Below, piece after piece: positions 56,306-63,755 of a DNA stretch of 64,000 bases. The translations under genes were made by a program, and so were the position numbers. The DNA comes from Dyella japonica A8. GTDB lineage: Bacteria > Pseudomonadota > Gammaproteobacteria > Xanthomonadales > Rhodanobacteraceae. The stretch covers positions 3,596,001 to 3,660,000 of the forward strand of contig NZ_CP008884.1 in the NCBI RefSeq assembly GCF_000725385.1, written 5' to 3'. Every line of letters begins with the position of its first letter. Position 1 is the stretch's first letter. Below the pieces are notes generated by a model, which had not been told where the DNA came from, did no database searches, and was given only the letters and a program-made list of their open reading frames with translations.

Positions 56306-57523
56306 ATGCACCCGCAACGCCTTTGGAGGAACCTGCGCCGGGCCAGCAAACGGTATGTCCTAGTGCGCATCGGCATCGTCAGCGAAACGTATCCACCCGA
56401 AATCAACGGCGTGGCACTGACCGTGCACAGCCTCGCCGCCGGGCTCGCCTTGCAGGGCCACACGGTCGACCTGATCCGTCCCCGCCAGCGGCAGCCGTTC
56501 CAGGACGAGCCCGGCATCGCCACCCTCGAGGTGCGCGGCGCCTCCCTTCCCCGCTATCCAGGCCTGCGCTTCGGCCTGCCTGCAGGCAGCACACTGCGGG
56601 AGCGCTGGACGCGCCTGCGACCGGATGCGATCTACGTGGCGACGGAAGGCCCGCTAGGCTGGTCCGCCGTGCGCACGGCCAAGCGGCTGGGCATTCCCAC
56701 TGCCACGGGCTTCCACACCCGCTTCGATACCTATGCCGACCACTACGGCGTGGGTTTCCTCACCCCGGTGGTGCGCAACTATCTGCGCAACTTCCACCGC
56801 CGCGCGAAAGCCACCCTGGTGCCGACCGACGCGCTGGCTGGCGAGCTCACCGCGCTCGGCGTGGATACGGCGCGACTGCTGCGCCGTGCGGTCGATACGC
56901 AGCTGTTCCATCCGCGCCATCGCAACACCGCGTTGCGCACGGCCTGGGGCGTGGATGGCAACACGCCCGTGGTCCTGTATGTCGGCCGCATCGCGCCGGA
57001 AAAAAACCTAGACCTGGCCGTACGCACCTTCCGTGCCGTGCAGCAGCAGGTGCCCAAGGCCAAGTACGTGTGGGTGGGCGATGGCCCGGCTCGCGCCGCG
57101 CTGCAGGAAGCCAATCCCGATTTCATCTTCGCCGGCATGCAGCGCGGCGAGGCACTGGCCCAGCACTACGCCAGCGCCGATCTGTTTCCGTTCCCGAGCC
57201 TGAGCGAGACCTTCGGCAATGTGATCCTGGAAGCGCTCGCCTCCGGCCTGCCCGTGGTGGCCTACGAAGAGGGCGCAGCGCGCGAACACCTGCATACGGG
57301 CCACAACGGCTATCGCATCGACGCAGGCAACGAAAGGAACTTCATTGAATCCGCCGTGATGCTGGCCTCCAACGCCAGCCTGATCCGGCACATGGGGCGC
57401 GCCGCGCACGCGAGCATCGCCAACCTCTCGCCCGACGCGGTCATCAAAGAGTTCGAACACCTGTTGCGTGAACTGGCCCAGGAGAATGCGCATGAACACC
57501 ATGCCACCGCTGCACACGCCTGA
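56306..57523 (+). CDS. GT4 family glycosyltransferase
   Basis: A 405-residue GT-B enzyme. N-terminal half: VRIGIVSETYPPEINGVALT, TEGPLGWSAVRTAKRLGIPT and the loop GFHTRFDTYADHYG. C-terminal nucleotide-sugar half: VVLYVGRIAPEKNLDLAVRTF and the E-x7-E motif in SLSETFGNVILEALASGLPV. Similar to glycolipid mannosyl/glucosyl transferases. ATG 56306 is used, but the core begins at GTG 56363, which is an alternative start. The stop overlaps the PAP2 gene. Confidence 0.88.
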   Translation: MHPQRLWRNLRRASKRYVLVRIGIVSETYPPEINGVALTVHSLAAGLALQGHTVDLIRPRQRQPFQDEPGIATLEVRGASLPRYPGLRFGLPAGSTLRERWTRLRPDAIYVATEGPLGWSAVRTAKRLGIPTATGFHTRFDTYADHYGVGFLTPVVRNYLRNFHRRAKATLVPTDALAGELTALGVDTARLLRRAVDTQLFHPRHRNTALRTAWGVDGNTPVVLYVGRIAPEKNLDLAVRTFRAVQQQVPKAKYVWVGDGPARAALQEANPDFIFAGMQRGEALAQHYASADLFPFPSLSETFGNVILEALASGLPVVAYEEGAAREHLHTGHNGYRIDAGNERNFIESAVMLASNASLIRHMGRAAHASIANLSPDAVIKEFEHLLRELAQENAHEHHATAAHA

Positions 57524-58073
57524 GCTGATGGAGCGTGCTCATGGCCCCCGCTTCGCCATTGATCGGCGCATGTGCGTCGCCGCCAACCGCTGGGGCACGC
57601 GCCGCGCCGTTGGCGTGTTCTTCGGCATCATCAGCCGACTGGGCGATGGGGTGTTCTGGTATTCGCTGATGGCAGTGCTCGCCCTGGTCGACGGCCGCCG
57701 CGGCTTGCTGGCGGCCTCGCAGATGGCCATCACCGGCCTGGCCGCCCTGCTGCTCTATCGCCTGCTCAAGCGCTGGACACGGCGCCCGCGCCCCTTCCGC
57801 GCCTGCCCCGGCGTGATCGCGCATGTGCCGCCGCTGGACGAATTCAGCTTTCCCTCGGGCCACACGCTGCAGGCGGTGAGCTTCACCGTCGTGGCGCTTG
57901 CCTGGTATCCGCTGCTCGCGCCGCTGCTGCTCACCTTCACCGTGCTGGTGGGCGCCTCGCGTGTGATCCTCGGTTTGCACTACCCGAGCGATGTCATTGC
58001 CGCCACCGTCATCGGCAGCGCGCTGGGTGCCCTGTCTCTGTGGCTGTTGCCGTTCCACTCGCTGCTGGCCTGA
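57492..58073 (+). CDS. PAP2 family phosphatase
   Basis: A 193-residue membrane protein with the three acid-phosphatase motifs: KRWTRRPRP, FPSGHTLQAVSF and ASRVILGLHYPSD. About five hydrophobic helices. It should dephosphorylate a lipid phosphate in the envelope; its overlap with the glycosyltransferase gene suggests a shared glycolipid or polyprenyl-phosphate task. AGGAG lies 7 nt before ATG 57492. Confidence 0.9.
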   Translation: MNTMPPLHTPELMERAHGPRFAIDRRMCVAANRWGTRRAVGVFFGIISRLGDGVFWYSLMAVLALVDGRRGLLAASQMAITGLAALLLYRLLKRWTRRPRPFRACPGVIAHVPPLDEFSFPSGHTLQAVSFTVVALAWYPLLAPLLLTFTVLVGASRVILGLHYPSDVIAATVIGSALGALSLWLLPFHSLLA

Positions 58074-58133
58074 GCCTTCTTCTCAACGGTGAAAGGCATC
58101 CTGCACGACTCACGGCCCGCCGAGGCTGTGCAT

Positions 58134-58989
58134 TTGCGCGCCACGATGTCGTCATCGCTTTGACATCAGTGAGATAGCCCACCTATCCACAGGCTTCTCC
58201 CGTGCGCATCCACATTCGCTGTGGAAAACATCCGGTGACTGATCAAATAGTGACCACCGCGTGACAAGTGGTTGTCGGCAAAGAGGCCTTGGGTGGTTTT
58301 CCACAGGCTTATGCAGGTGGCGTCCACATGAGCTGTGGAAAACGTGATGCCGTTTCGCACGTCAGTCGCGCACAGGGTGCGCTCCCACAGGAAACACGAT
58401 CGCGCGGTGGGAGCGCACCCTGTGCGCGATGCAGGCTCGCCTCGCGCTGCACATTTGCACGCCAACGCGTCGCCATGCCTTTGACGTCAGCGACATAGCG
58501 CACCTATCCACAGGCTTCTCCCGCACGCATCCACATTCGCTGTGGAAAACGTGATGTCGTTTCGCACGTCAGTCGCGCACAGGGTGCGCTCCCACAGCAA
58601 ACACGATCGCCCTATGGGAGCGCACCCTGTGCGCGATGCAGGCTCGCCCCGCGCTGCACGTTTGCGCGCCAACGCGTCGCCATGCCTTTGAGGTCAGCGA
58701 CATAGCGCATCTGTCCACAGGATTCTCCCGCGCGCATCCACATTAGGATTCTCCCGCGCGCATCCACATTCGCTGTGGAAAACGTGATGCCGTTTCGCAC
58801 GTCAGTCGCGCACAGGGTGCGCTCCCACAGGAATGACGATCGCGCGGTGGGAGCGCACCCTGTGCGCGACGCAAGCTCACCTCGCGCTGCACGTTTGTGC
58901 GCCAACGCGTCACTCATCCTTTGGCGTCAGCGACGTAGCGCACCTATCCACAGGCTTCTCCCGCGCGCATCCACATTCGCTGTGGAGAA
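58134..58989. repeat. Tandem array A: about 207-bp units of DnaA-box-like module plus REP palindrome
   Basis: Unit order: CTATCCACAGGCTTCTCCCG ... GCATCCACATTCGCTGTGGA-AAAC, a GTTTCGCACGTC linker, an inverted pair of GTGGGAGCGCACCCTGTGCG arms, then AACGCGTCGCCATGCCTTTG. CTATCCACA or CTGTCCACA starts at 58183, 58504, 58711 and 58944. TTTTCCACA, usually as TGTGGAAAA, is at 58220, 58298, 58334, 58541 and 58774. Spacing is 207 bp, or 233 where a 26-bp duplication lies. It sits between converging PAP2 and accD ends. Confidence 0.88.
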
Positions 58990-59052: not shown

Positions 59053-59925
59053 TCAGGCCACGCGTGGCGCCTTCATCAGGATGCCGAGCAGGTCCGCCAG
59101 CTTGTCGCGCATTTCGCGGCGATCGACGATAAGGTCGACGGCGCCGTGCTCCACCAGGAACTCCGAACGCTGGAAGCCTTCAGGCAGGGTCTCGCGCACG
59201 GTCTGCGCGATCACGCGCGGACCGGCGAAGCCGATCAGCGCCTTCGGCTCGGCGACGTTGATGTCACCCAGCATGCCCAGGCTCGCCGTCACGCCACCGG
59301 TGGTCGGGTCCGTGAGCACGCTGATGTACGGCACGCCAGCATCACGCAAACGCGCCAGTGCTGCCGAGGTCTTGGCCATCTGCATCAACGAGAACAGCGA
59401 CTCCTGCATGCGGGCGCCACCGGAGGCCGAAAAGCACACCAGCGCGCTGCGGTCGGCCAATGCACGTTCGGCGGCGCGGGTGAACTTCTCTCCCACCACC
59501 GAGCCCATCGAGCCGGCCATGAACGAGAAATCGAAGGCCACGGCCATGAGCGGACGGCCCTTGAGGCGACCGCTCATCGCCACCAGCGCATCCTTCTCGC
59601 CGGTGGATTTCTGCGCCGCGATGACGCGGTCGCGGTACTTCTTGGAATCACGGAACTTGAGCGGGTCGTTCGGCTCCATGCTGGCCCACAGCTCCTGTGC
59701 GGAACCCGGATCCAACAGGGCATCCAGACGCGCACGCGCATCGATGGCGTGGTGATGTCCGCACTTGGGGCAAACCATCAGGTTGCGCTCCAGCTCCGGA
59801 CGGTACAGCACCGTGCCGCAGCCATTGCACTTCTCCCACACACCTTCGGGCACCTTGCCCTTGCCAGCGTTGCCGGCGGCTTCCGTGCGGGCACGGGGGG
59901 TCATGATTTTCTGGAGCCAGTTCAT
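59053..59925 (-). CDS. accD: Acetyl-CoA carboxylase carboxyltransferase subunit beta
   Basis: A 290-residue subunit that transfers carboxyl from carboxybiotin to acetyl-CoA in fatty-acid synthesis, partnered by AccA. N-terminal four-Cys zinc ribbon (C33-NG-C36, C52-PK-C55), then the crotonase-like carboxyltransferase fold ([52 protein letters not shown]). It follows trpA by 54 bp, the xanthomonad-type arrangement, and ends at a strong terminator. Confidence 0.97.
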
Positions 59926-60780: not shown

Positions 60781-61985
60781 ACCTGCACTCCTTCGCGGGC
60801 GGCAATGGTGTGCACGTCCTTGTCACCACGACCGGACAGGTTGCACAGCACCAGTCCGTCCTTCGGGTACTCGCGCGCCAGCTTGATGGCCTGCGCTACG
60901 GCGTGGCTGGATTCCAGGGCGGCAAGAATGCCTTCGGTGCGCGCCAGCAGGTGGAAGGCTTCCAGTGCTTCGTCGTCGGTGACGCCGACGTATTCGGCGC
61001 GGCCGGCGTCCTTCAGGAAGGCATGCTCCGGCCCCACGCCCGGATAGTCGAGGCCCGCGGAAACGGAGTGTGTTTCAGTGATCTGCCCGTTGTCGTCGCA
61101 TAGCACATAGGTGCGGTTGCCGTGCAGCACGCCCGGGCGCCCCGCCGCCAGCGAAGCCGCGTGATGCCCGGTGGCGATGCCCTCGCCCGCCGCCTCCGCA
61201 CCCACCACACGCACGCCCTCGTCATTGAGGAAGGCATGGAACAGACCGATGGCGTTGGAGCCACCGCCCACGCAGGCGGTGATCACGTCCGGCAAGCGCC
61301 CGAATTGCTCCAGTACCTGCGCGCGCGCCTCGCGACCGACGATGGCATTGAAGTCGCGCACCATCAGCGGATACGGATGCGGACCGGCCACGGTGCCGAT
61401 GATGTAGAAGGTGTCGGCCACGTTGGTGACCCAGTCGCGCATCGCTTCGTTGAGCGCGTCCTTGAGCGTCTTGGAGCCCGACGTCACCGGCACCACCTCG
61501 GCGCCAAGCAGCTTCATGCGGTAGACGTTGATCTTCTGCCGCTCGATGTCCACCGCGCCCATGTAGACCACGCACTTGAGGCCGAAGCGCGCCGCCACCG
61601 TGGCACTGGCCACGCCATGCTGGCCCGCGCCGGTCTCCGCGATGACGCGCGGCTTGCCCATGCGGCGGGCGACCAGCGCCTGGCCGATGGTGTTGTTGAT
61701 CTTGTGCGCGCCGGTATGGTTCAGGTCCTCGCGCTTGAGCAGGATGCGCGCGCCGCCGACGTGCCGGCTCAGGTGCTCGGCGTAGTACACCGGGCTGGGG
61801 CGGCCCACGTAGTACTGCAGGTCGCGGTCCAGCTCGGCGATGAAGTCGGGATCCTTGCGCAGGCGCAGGTAGGCCTCGGTCAGCTCGGCCAGTGGCGCCA
61901 TGAGGGTTTCGGCCACGTAGGTGCCGCCGTAATTGCCAAAGCGCCCGTGCTCGTCGGGGTAGGCGCTGAAATCGATCTTGCTCAT
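60777..61985 (-). CDS. trpB: Tryptophan synthase beta subunit
   Basis: A 402-residue PLP enzyme that joins indole and serine. PLP Lys in [20 protein letters not shown]; phosphate-binding [26 protein letters not shown]. It is divergent from a LysR-type gene over 106 bp, as in Pseudomonas trpBA/trpI. Confidence 0.97.
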
Positions 61986-62091
61986 GGGGCGTCGGGAAAG
62001 TCACAGGAGAATACCGCCCAACCTACCCCAAAGCGCTGGCGGTAAAAAGCGATATGATGGAAGCCATCCGTCAGGAAAACTCACACGTGCC

Positions 62092-62985
62092 ATGCCCCGT
62101 GCGTTGCCATCGCTGAATGCCCTGCTCGCCTTCGAGGCCGCCGCCCGTCTGGGCAGCGTGAGCCGCGCCGCCACCGAGTTGCACGTGACCCACGGCGCCA
62201 TCAGCCGTCATATCCGTGCACTGGAGGAAGACCTGCGCACGGCGCTGTTCCAGCGCCAGGGACGCGGCCTGGTGCTCACCCCAGCCGGCCAGCGCCTGCG
62301 CGACACCAGCACCACCGCCTTCGCGCAGTTGCGCGACACCTGTGACGCGGTGCGCTCGGGCGCGACGAACGCGCCGTTCGTGCTGGGTTGCCCGGTCAGC
62401 CTGCTCGCCCGCTGGATGATTCCTCGCCTGGAACGCCTGATGGACGAGCTGCCGGACCTGGACCTGCACCTGCGCCCACAGGAAACCGGCTTCGACGAAT
62501 CGCTGACCGGCCTCGATGCCGCGGTCATGGCGGGCGAACCGCCGTGGCCACCGGGATGGCGGGTGTATCCGCTGGCCCACGAGCGCGTCGGCCCGGTCGC
62601 CAGCCCCGACTTCGCCAAGGCGCACCGGCTGGTGCGCAGCCGCCCGCAAGCGCTCTATGAGCAGGCCCTGCTGCATACGCTTTCCCGGCCCGACGCATGG
62701 TCGAGCTGGGCTGAAAGCATCGAACTGCCGGCGAAGCGGCTGAAGCCAGGGCAAGGCTATCCGCACCTTTATCACATGATCGAAGCGGCCGTGGCTGGCC
62801 GTGGCGTCGCCATCGCCCCCGAGCCGCTGGTCGCAGACGACCTGGCCTCGGGCCGGCTCATCGCTCCATGGGGCTTCCAGGCCATCCGTGCCCAGTGGGT
62901 ATTGGCCACGCCCGCGCGAATCTCCGATGTCCGGGCGGAACCGCTCGCTGAATGGTTGAAGGCGGCCTTCGCCGATCGCCAGTAG
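62092..62985 (+). CDS. LysR family regulator, TrpI/GcvA-like
   Basis: A 297-residue protein. Helix-turn-helix LLAFEAAARLGSVSRAATEL, THGAISRHIRALEEDL, then FQRQGRGLVLTPAG; the effector domain ends SDVRAEPLAEWLKAAFA. This N-terminus is typical of the GcvA/AmpR/TrpI subgroup. Its position, divergent from trpBA, strongly suggests control of tryptophan synthase by indoleglycerol phosphate as for Pseudomonas TrpI; that effector is inferred. Confidence 0.88.
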   Translation: MPRALPSLNALLAFEAAARLGSVSRAATELHVTHGAISRHIRALEEDLRTALFQRQGRGLVLTPAGQRLRDTSTTAFAQLRDTCDAVRSGATNAPFVLGCPVSLLARWMIPRLERLMDELPDLDLHLRPQETGFDESLTGLDAAVMAGEPPWPPGWRVYPLAHERVGPVASPDFAKAHRLVRSRPQALYEQALLHTLSRPDAWSSWAESIELPAKRLKPGQGYPHLYHMIEAAVAGRGVAIAPEPLVADDLASGRLIAPWGFQAIRAQWVLATPARISDVRAEPLAEWLKAAFADRQ

Positions 62986-63045: not shown

Positions 63046-63755
63046 GCCAGCACGTCGCCATGTCTTTCGCATCAGACAGATAGGCTCTCTATCCACAGCG
63101 TTTTCCAGCGTGCATCCACATTCGCTGTGGAAAAGATGCGAGGTGCTGCAGCGATGGAGGCCGGTCGCGCACAAGTGCGCTCCTACAGTAGGGATCGCGT
63201 CGTTGTGGGAGCGCACCCTGTGCGCGACGGCGACACCCTGCACATTCAGGCATCAACGCGTCGCGATGACTTTCCCGTCAGATAGATAAGTGACCTATCC
63301 ACAGCGTTTTCCAGCGTGCATCCACATTCGCTGTGGAAAACATGAGCGGTGCTGCAGCGATGGAGGCCAGTCGCGCACAAGTGCGCTCCTACAGTCGGGA
63401 TCGCGTCGTTGTGGGAGCGCACCCTGTGCGCGACGGCGACGTGCTGCGCATTCACGCATCAATGCGTCGCGATGTCTTTGCCGTCAGATAGATAAGTGAT
63501 CTATCCACAGCGTTTTCCAGCATGCATCCACATTCGCTGTGGAAAACATGAGCGGTGCTGCAGCGATGGAGGCCAGTCGCGCACAAGTGCGCTCCTACAG
63601 TAGAGGGATCGCGTCGTTGTGGGAGCGCACCCTGTGCGCGACGGCGACACCCTGCACATTCACGCATCAACGCGTCGCGATGTCTTTGCCGTCAGATAGA
63701 TAAGTGACCTATCCACAGCGTTTTCCAGCGTGCATCCACATTCGCTGTGGAAAAC
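63046..63755. repeat. Tandem array B: about 206-bp units homologous to array A
   Basis: CTATCCACA starts at 63089, 63295, 63501 and 63709 (spacing 206, 206, 208). Each is followed by GCGTTTTCCAGCGTGCATCC, an ACATTCGC link and TGTGGAAAA at 63126, 63332, 63538 and 63746. Between them are TGCTGCAGCGATGGAGGCC, an inverted pair formed by GTCGCGCACAAGTGCGCTCC and GTGGGAGCGCACCCTGTGCG, and AACGCGTCGCGATGTCTTTG. It lies between the converging ends of the LysR gene and trpF and shares its linker (AACGCGTCGC) with array A. Confidence 0.9.

Follow-up and report, generated by a model that had tools for sequence, protein, structure and literature searches.

The closest described systems are the Escherichia coli loci DARS1 and DARS2, in both of which a core of three DnaA boxes is equally spaced with box I opposite to the other two, and in which the head-to-head pair of boxes I and II is essential for the release of ADP (PMC5742627 and PMC10380432, in the portions of these papers covered here). 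The same portions describe datA as located near oriC and as dependent on an IHF site flanked by DnaA boxes (PMC5742627, PMC10380432). Fis is needed at DARS2, and IHF is needed at DARS2 and not at DARS1. Sequences resembling DARS1 and DARS2 are already described as conserved in many proteobacteria in the published abstracts and excerpts covered, and in that literature the DARS mechanism rests on the two E. coli loci. No paper on the arrays described below was found among the open-licence PMC papers listed, as judged from titles and the opening parts of abstracts.

In the MG1655 genome, DARS1 reads TAATACACA-N3-TTATCCACA-N5-AGTGGATAA and DARS2, with its boxes placed by eye, reads TTCTTCACA-N3-CTATCCACA-N5-GGTGAATAA; both share this III-N3-II-N5-I layout with a core upstream of priA in the Dyella genome analysed here. 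The array units that are our main subject resemble the two E. coli sites in having three predicted DnaA boxes with box I inverted relative to II and III, a 5-bp head-to-head gap between I and II, and an intergenic, non-coding chromosomal position, and the unit length of about 103 bp resembles that of DARS1 (101 bp). They differ in the III-II gap, which is 14 bp as opposed to 3 bp in both DARS (a difference of 11 bp, or about one helical turn) and contains a weak extra box, and in number, the array form reaching 15 copies per genome and being in tandem here. Because the II/III spacing is 14 bp, and the 3-bp spacing is found at the organism's own priA site, we call the array units DARS-like and do not class them as DARS. 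With datA they share the character of a DnaA-box cluster outside oriC, but they differ from it in lacking a clear IHF-like site and in having boxes I and II head to head; arrays A and B are situated close to the terminus, and none of the arrays A, B and C is near oriC. An earlier sequence-only reading had offered datA and DARS together as analogues, and the head-to-head I/II pair with its 5-bp gap makes DARS the better fit of the two.

Three arrays of DnaA-box clusters

The window, the whole 64-kb stretch of DNA that was analysed, covers positions 3596001-3660000 of a genome assembled as a single contig of 4.83 Mb. Array A (58183-58989 of the window) contains five clusters of three DnaA-box-like 9-mers, each consisting of CTATCCACA, GCATCCACA and minus-strand TTTTCCACA, with small variations, at fixed spacing within a 46-bp block whose layout is III-N14-II-N5-I (inverted). 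The sequence-only reading had reported these 9-mers within about 46 bp, in four to five clusters, and both statements are borne out. The blocks start at 58183, 58297, 58504, 58711 and 58944, with start-to-start distances of 114, 207, 207 and 233 bp, such that the period of about 207 bp given in that reading holds for two of the distances and not for the other two.

All five cores of array A are on the plus strand. Core 1 (58183-58228) has box III CTATCCACA, N14, box II GCATCCACA, N5 and the inverted box I TTTTCCACA; core 2 (58297-58342) has TTTTCCACA, GCGTCCACA and minus-strand TTTTCCACA; core 3 lies at 58504-58549; in core 4 (58711-58782) box II is repeated by a 26-bp tandem duplication (58719-58770), and this core appears with hexamer gaps of 20 and 5 in the free-gap scan described below; and in core 5 (58944-58989) box I is TTCTCCACA. 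A PAP2-family gene (57468-58073, plus strand, Pfam PF01569) ends before the array, and an accD-like gene (Carboxyl_trans, 59053-59925, minus strand, Pfam PF01039) is convergent with it across the array. Three REP palindromes lie in the spacers, at 58365-58429 between cores 2 and 3, at 58572-58636 between cores 3 and 4, and at 58805-58870 between cores 4 and 5. There are thus three palindromes for five clusters, with none at cluster 1, contrary to the earlier statement that each cluster is joined to one.

Array B (63089-63754) has the same core as array A, a related spacer with REP and a 206-bp period. Its four cores, all on the plus strand, lie at 63089-63134, 63295-63340, 63501-63546 and 63709-63754, between a LysR-family gene (61978-62985, plus strand, Pfam PF00126 and PF03466) and trpF (PRAI, L010:776-1453, minus strand, Pfam PF00697), which are convergent. 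Array C (genome positions 4725951-4726621) is 1.07 Mb from the window arrays and contains six exact cores, mostly with a 128-bp period, in near-identical units with an unrelated spacer and no REP. A variant unit with one mismatch, in which box II is TTTCCCCA, precedes these cores at 4725826-4725865. Among the matches listed, this variant first unit is kept in 14 of 16 Dyella genomes, and it is also present in one genome of another genus (G017).

A genome-wide count, which had been put forward as a check together with mapping to oriC and ter, places all exact cores in the three arrays: the pattern TCCACA-N17-TCCACA-N5-TGTGGA has 14 exact matches (four in A, four in B and six in C), with one further match at one mismatch, in array C, and none outside the arrays at one mismatch or fewer. 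At two mismatches the priA site, matched on either strand, is the only one outside the arrays; a third mismatch adds three scattered matches, compared with two for the reversed control at three mismatches or fewer. The single-box motif TTWTNCACA has 70 matches in the 4.83 Mb against 40 for its reversed control, and 15 of the 70 fall inside arrays A, B and C, which make up about 0.05% of the genome; within the 64-kb window, 17 of the 24 9-mers within one mismatch of TTATCCACA are inside arrays A and B. Enrichment of the 9-mers in the arrays is far above chance.

The dnaA gene is at about 806 kb, and a dif-type site, one mismatch from the pattern used, is at 3167 kb. With oriC taken as next to dnaA, arrays A and B lie at about 80% and array C at about 37% of the distance between the dnaA locus and this site, on the same arm. 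Two ATATCCACA boxes 12 bp apart are present upstream of dnaA (L013:2408-2428, genome 807177-807197), near an rpmH-like start identified by eye.

The core and the REP palindrome are separate elements: dispersed copies of REP are not accompanied by the core, and in array C the core stands without REP. In a genome search with one 207-bp unit, for which 40 of 238 candidates were scored, the REP part is found at at least 37 other places without the core, and the core part only in arrays A, B and C. The spacer palindrome is therefore an ordinary, high-copy dispersed palindrome of the REP/BIME kind and the core is not; the core is no part of the dispersed REP and is also found where REP is absent. 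The palindrome rides along as a passenger, and the conserved part is the 46-bp core. The earlier proposal of an array built from a REP-type repeat is accordingly not supported, relatives conserving the core, and we reject a REP-derived titration array on the same grounds (dispersed REP without core, array C without REP). Decay of the 9-mers with conservation of REP had been named as an outcome that would count against a DnaA role; the reverse is seen. In arrays A and B the palindromes probably became caught in the spacers and were then multiplied together with the units.

Range, setting and anatomy of the core

At one mismatch or fewer the core is present in 147 of 233 genomes of the family, in 19 of its 26 genera and in 20 of 20 genomes of the genus, with the reversed control pattern at zero in every family genome; these sequences are related by descent, and neither genome nor locus counts are independent. 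The array core is dispensable, because seven of the 26 genera are without it at this threshold. Exact cores occur in 164 of 398 genomes of the order, all in two of its twelve families, and a sample of the class yields five of 369 genomes, all five within the order and none among the 364 outside it. Copy number in Dyella ranges from 2 to 15 per genome at one mismatch or fewer. A contig scan of the whole collection gives at least 119 stretches with cores, and the named records include Dyella, Rhodanobacter, Luteibacter, Xanthomonas, Stenotrophomonas, Pseudoxanthomonas, Luteimonas and Thermomonas. Among the 119 stretches listed, 28 have titles that we take as outside the Xanthomonadales, a few of them reading only 'proteobacterium', with a single core each; they exceed a chance estimate of about 7.5 (whole collection, uniform base composition) and were left out of the alignments.

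The order of PAP2 gene, cores and accD is syntenic in Rhodanobacter and Dyella by tblastn, and both flanks are present in L101, L109, L111, L143, L157, L160 and L180. At the locus of array C, a DegV gene lies upstream of the cores and an SDR gene on the other side, an arrangement that recurs in two Dyella loci (L142 and L153). In Xanthomonas and Stenotrophomonas the cores occupy other recurring loci, for example between miaB and phoH (names assigned by eye); neighbouring open reading frames in Xanthomonadaceae were clustered with a codon-position filter and the clusters likewise named by eye. Among the named relatives, 107 of 119 cores lie outside predicted genes. Neighbouring genes are convergent at 34 of 53 core loci as against 65 of 450 other gene pairs, the 53 being those of 91 loci with both neighbours within 600 bp, and the loci not being independent. 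We rejected a promoter element, the cores favouring gaps between convergent genes, and a mobile element, there being no solo core copies in the genome.

Adjacent cores are at least 113 bp apart, with none of the 92 adjacent pairs spaced between 40 and 112 bp, and 91 of the 92 are in the same orientation (pairs taken over a 40-400 bp range; at least two loci were entered twice and a few pairs are double-counted). The only opposite pair is at a Dyella marensis locus (L136), where cores in both orientations surround one site. No helical phasing of the array spacing was found at 10.5 bp (mean vector 0.14, 41 distinct spacings).

In an alignment of 165 distinct array cores from the loci analysed, information falls towards background right after position 47, and bases outside the searched hexamers fit a DnaA box (T at position 2 in 97%, A at positions 45 and 46 in 84% and 90%). 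Mean matches to the nine bases of TTATCCACA are 8.2 for box III (position 1), 6.89 for box II (position 24) and 7.98 for box I (position 38, minus strand). Position 13, in the III-II gap, is a weak fourth box, 'm' (TTNTCC), with a mean of 4.84 against a background of about 2, which would explain a conserved GGCTT; values are likewise elevated at offset 2 on the minus strand (4.3) and at offset 37 on the plus strand (4.09), which overlap boxes III and I. Box II in the form GCATCCACA has two mismatches to TTATCCACA, with G in position 1. The conserved unit spans about -56 to +47 (163 units) and the spacers are unconserved. Before box III there are extra conserved bases, CT at -24/-23 and CA at -15/-14, which match no site known to us.

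The organism's own DnaA is identical to that of E. coli at 17 of 22 compared residues, including R399, K415, P423, H434, T435 and T436, and differs at five (E21, F46, H136, V211 and R245); it keeps the box-reading residues. It also keeps D269, R285 and L290 of the E. coli protein. D269 (sensor 1) and L290 (AID-2) are needed for DARS, in the portion of the source covered (PMC5742627). An Hda homologue is present in the genome, so a pool of ADP-DnaA is expected. The view that these are clustered DnaA sites away from the origin gains from the non-hexamer bases, the fixed geometry across two families and the identical box-reading residues, and DnaA is accordingly a strong candidate for the protein that would bind here.

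Canonical cores and a Fis-like site at a fixed distance

A free-gap scan of 36 family genomes, with hexamer gaps of 3-33 and 0-20 (651 combinations) and gap classes counted by eye, gives 157 matches, of which at least 142 have gaps of (6,5) or (17,5); among the 150 listed, 31 are (6,5), 111 are (17,5) and eight are others. The reversed control gives one match in one genome. The (6,5) form corresponds in the organism's own genome to CCATCCACA-GAC-TTATCCACA-GAGGC-TGTGGATAA, upstream of priA at genome positions 4734929-4734963. In this canonical DARS-type core, just as in the array units, a Fis-like match stands 78 bp from box II; the core differs from the units in being a single copy with near-consensus boxes and the exact E. 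coli geometry, III-N3-II-N5-I.

Unlike the array core, the canonical form extends across the class: with up to two mismatches allowed, 278 of 369 class genomes have it, and with no more than one mismatch it is present in 343 of 398 genomes of the order. It lies upstream of priA in 10 of 11 order regions, and a priA match is found beside it in three of 12 class loci of 3 kb each; in the E. coli priA region it is absent at five mismatches or fewer. The core upstream of priA is widely kept in the order and may, in addition, couple priA expression to DnaA.

Fis-like sites were first scanned with a consensus that has 13 informative positions. The peak lies at -54 from box III across all 163 array units and at -65 in the canonical cores of the order (12 loci); counted from box II, it is at -78 in both, and 12 canonical cores from the class also peak at -78. 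In a second set of 39 canonical class cores (40 chosen before the test, one dropped at a contig end), -78 ranks first of 245 offsets with a mean of 9.49 against a background of 4.96, and 30 of the 39 score at least 9 of 13 there, compared with 1.04 expected and a value reached in none of 2000 column shuffles. The published six-position consensus, GnnYAnnnnnTRnnC in the part of the source covered (PMC4245941), also peaks at -78 in the canonical sets (4.64, 4.25 and 4.58 of 6); in array units it scores 3.42 there and slightly higher, 3.55, at offset -32. With a weight matrix built from 51 class sites outside the order, the array units reach their highest score in the -78 register (1.65 against a background of -8.04), with 5.05 in Xanthomonadaceae, 2.37 in the organism's own units and a best position 1 bp off in Rhodanobacteraceae.

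In the organism itself, 13 of the 14 exact cores exceed the 95th percentile of the matrix in this register, and the priA core reaches the 99.99th; core 2 of array A is the only exact core without a Fis-like match in register (17th percentile). The site of core 1 (58128-58142, plus strand) lies 78 bp before box II, at the 98.5th percentile of the window, and the corresponding positions are 58449-58463 for core 3 and 58889-58903 for core 5. These sites are weak, matching 6-8 of the 13 positions of the first consensus.

E. coli lacks the shared Fis-like position, because the best matrix matches of DARS1 and DARS2 lie elsewhere: in the 800 bp scanned around each they are found at +119 (12.84) and -180 (12.95) from box II respectively. 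Neither locus has a Fis-consensus match at -78 (5 of 13 each), and in this register the matrix ranks DARS1 44th and DARS2 520th of 800. In DARS2 the nearest Fis-consensus and IHF-like matches flank the core on the side that bears the Fis-like site in the array unit; the full Fis-consensus match of DARS2 is at 137 bp as opposed to 78 bp from box II. In each of the three canonical sets (L073-L084, L208-L218 and L220-L259) the strongest IHF-like match outside the boxes lies at -110 from box II, and this position falls outside the array unit. Within the array unit the scan found no clear IHF-like site (at best 4.03 of 9, at offset -42 on the other strand, compared with 5.0-5.3 at -110 in the canonical cores), and in this the unit differs from both the canonical cores and DARS2.

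Possible roles of the arrays

We consider it reasonably probable that arrays A, B and C consist of DARS-type units, amplified and modified, which DnaA would bind and at which it would probably be recharged. From layout and comparison we infer DnaA binding, Fis binding, nucleotide exchange and an effect on initiation. In each unit of about 103 bp a Fis-like site is followed by predicted DnaA boxes III, the weak 'm', II and inverted I, with tandem copies in A, B and C. The sequence evidence points strongly to DnaA binding at the boxes, and the molecules on I and II would face each other head to head over the 5-bp gap, in the manner of DARS1 and DARS2 in E. coli. By analogy with E. coli, ADP would then leave ADP-DnaA, and the apo-protein would depart and reload ATP. 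Since, compared with the E. coli-type core, box III is displaced outward by one helical turn and the gap contains a degenerate box, the unit could hold four DnaA molecules. Amplification into arrays would increase the number of exchange sites and, at the same time, retain DnaA on the chromosome. Fis may assist the recharging.

The main rival, which could act alongside recharging, is titration, in which the arrays form a sink that holds DnaA in any nucleotide state and delays or stabilises initiation without exchange. Many boxes lie in one place, the variable copy number within the genus is as expected of a sink, and there is a precedent in E. coli, where DARS1, DARS2 and datA themselves contribute to titration, in the part of the source covered (PMC12371093). 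However, a sink could do without a constant 5-bp gap between head-to-head boxes, without a uniform orientation of its units and without a set distance to a Fis-like site, and DnaA boxes in E. coli are enriched near oriC whereas arrays A and B are most of the way to dif; titration on its own is an unlikely account of the arrays.

The cores could alternatively be operators of a protein other than DnaA, for example a nucleoid protein of the Xanthomonadales, their likeness to DnaA boxes being fortuitous. We regard this as improbable, since the three boxes and the weak fourth fit the DnaA box beyond the searched hexamer, and since the canonical core, with the same 5-bp gap and an equally distant Fis-like match, is found class-wide, although the restriction of the array core to two families, the poor DnaA box at II and the conserved bases at -24/-23 and -15/-14 would suit such an operator. 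Very unlikely is a neutral or selfish tandem repeat, a functionless REP/BIME-type element amplified by slippage or by a RAYT transposase. The 207-bp period does include the dispersed REP, and the 26-bp duplication and the near-identical units of array C look like recent local duplications; against this, the genome has no solo or decayed cores elsewhere, the three 3-mismatch matches being about the number in the reversed control, REP is missing from array C, different genera share syntenic positions, and the unit is conserved while the spacers are not. An RNA element, with the inverted TCCACA/TGTGGA pair (6 bp, 5-nt loop, often between convergent genes) forming a transcript hairpin or terminator, is scarcely credible, given that only pair 26-44 shows a slight excess of complementarity (51 of 165 cores, 40.2 expected), the other pairs tested outside the hexamers are at or below chance (25-45, 30 against 27.1; 24-46, 24 against 33.9; 33-37, 35 against 34.8), no T-run follows the core and no Rfam family reaches its gathering score within the window.

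Returning to recharging, a broader reading is possible, which we offer more tentatively. A Fis site exactly 78 bp from the head-to-head pair may be the common form of recharging site in Gammaproteobacteria, overlooked because DARS1 and DARS2 deviate from it; in Xanthomonadaceae and Rhodanobacteraceae a derived version, in which box III has shifted outward by one helical turn and a weak fourth box is present, may have spread to several loci; and in Dyella this form may have been built into tandem arrays whose copy number would set the rate at which ADP-DnaA is recharged.

The occurrence of 14 exact DARS-like cores and one canonical core in a single genome constitutes natural variation in number and spacing, through which the spacing requirements of such sites, and the relation of recharging capacity to copy number, can be probed. 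The 78-bp distance to the Fis-like site in canonical cores across the class offers a simple signature by which such sites could be recognised in other species, and it places a structural limit on any model of a Fis-DnaA complex. The layout of the arrays suggests that some bacteria may carry many DnaA-recharging-like sites in a row.
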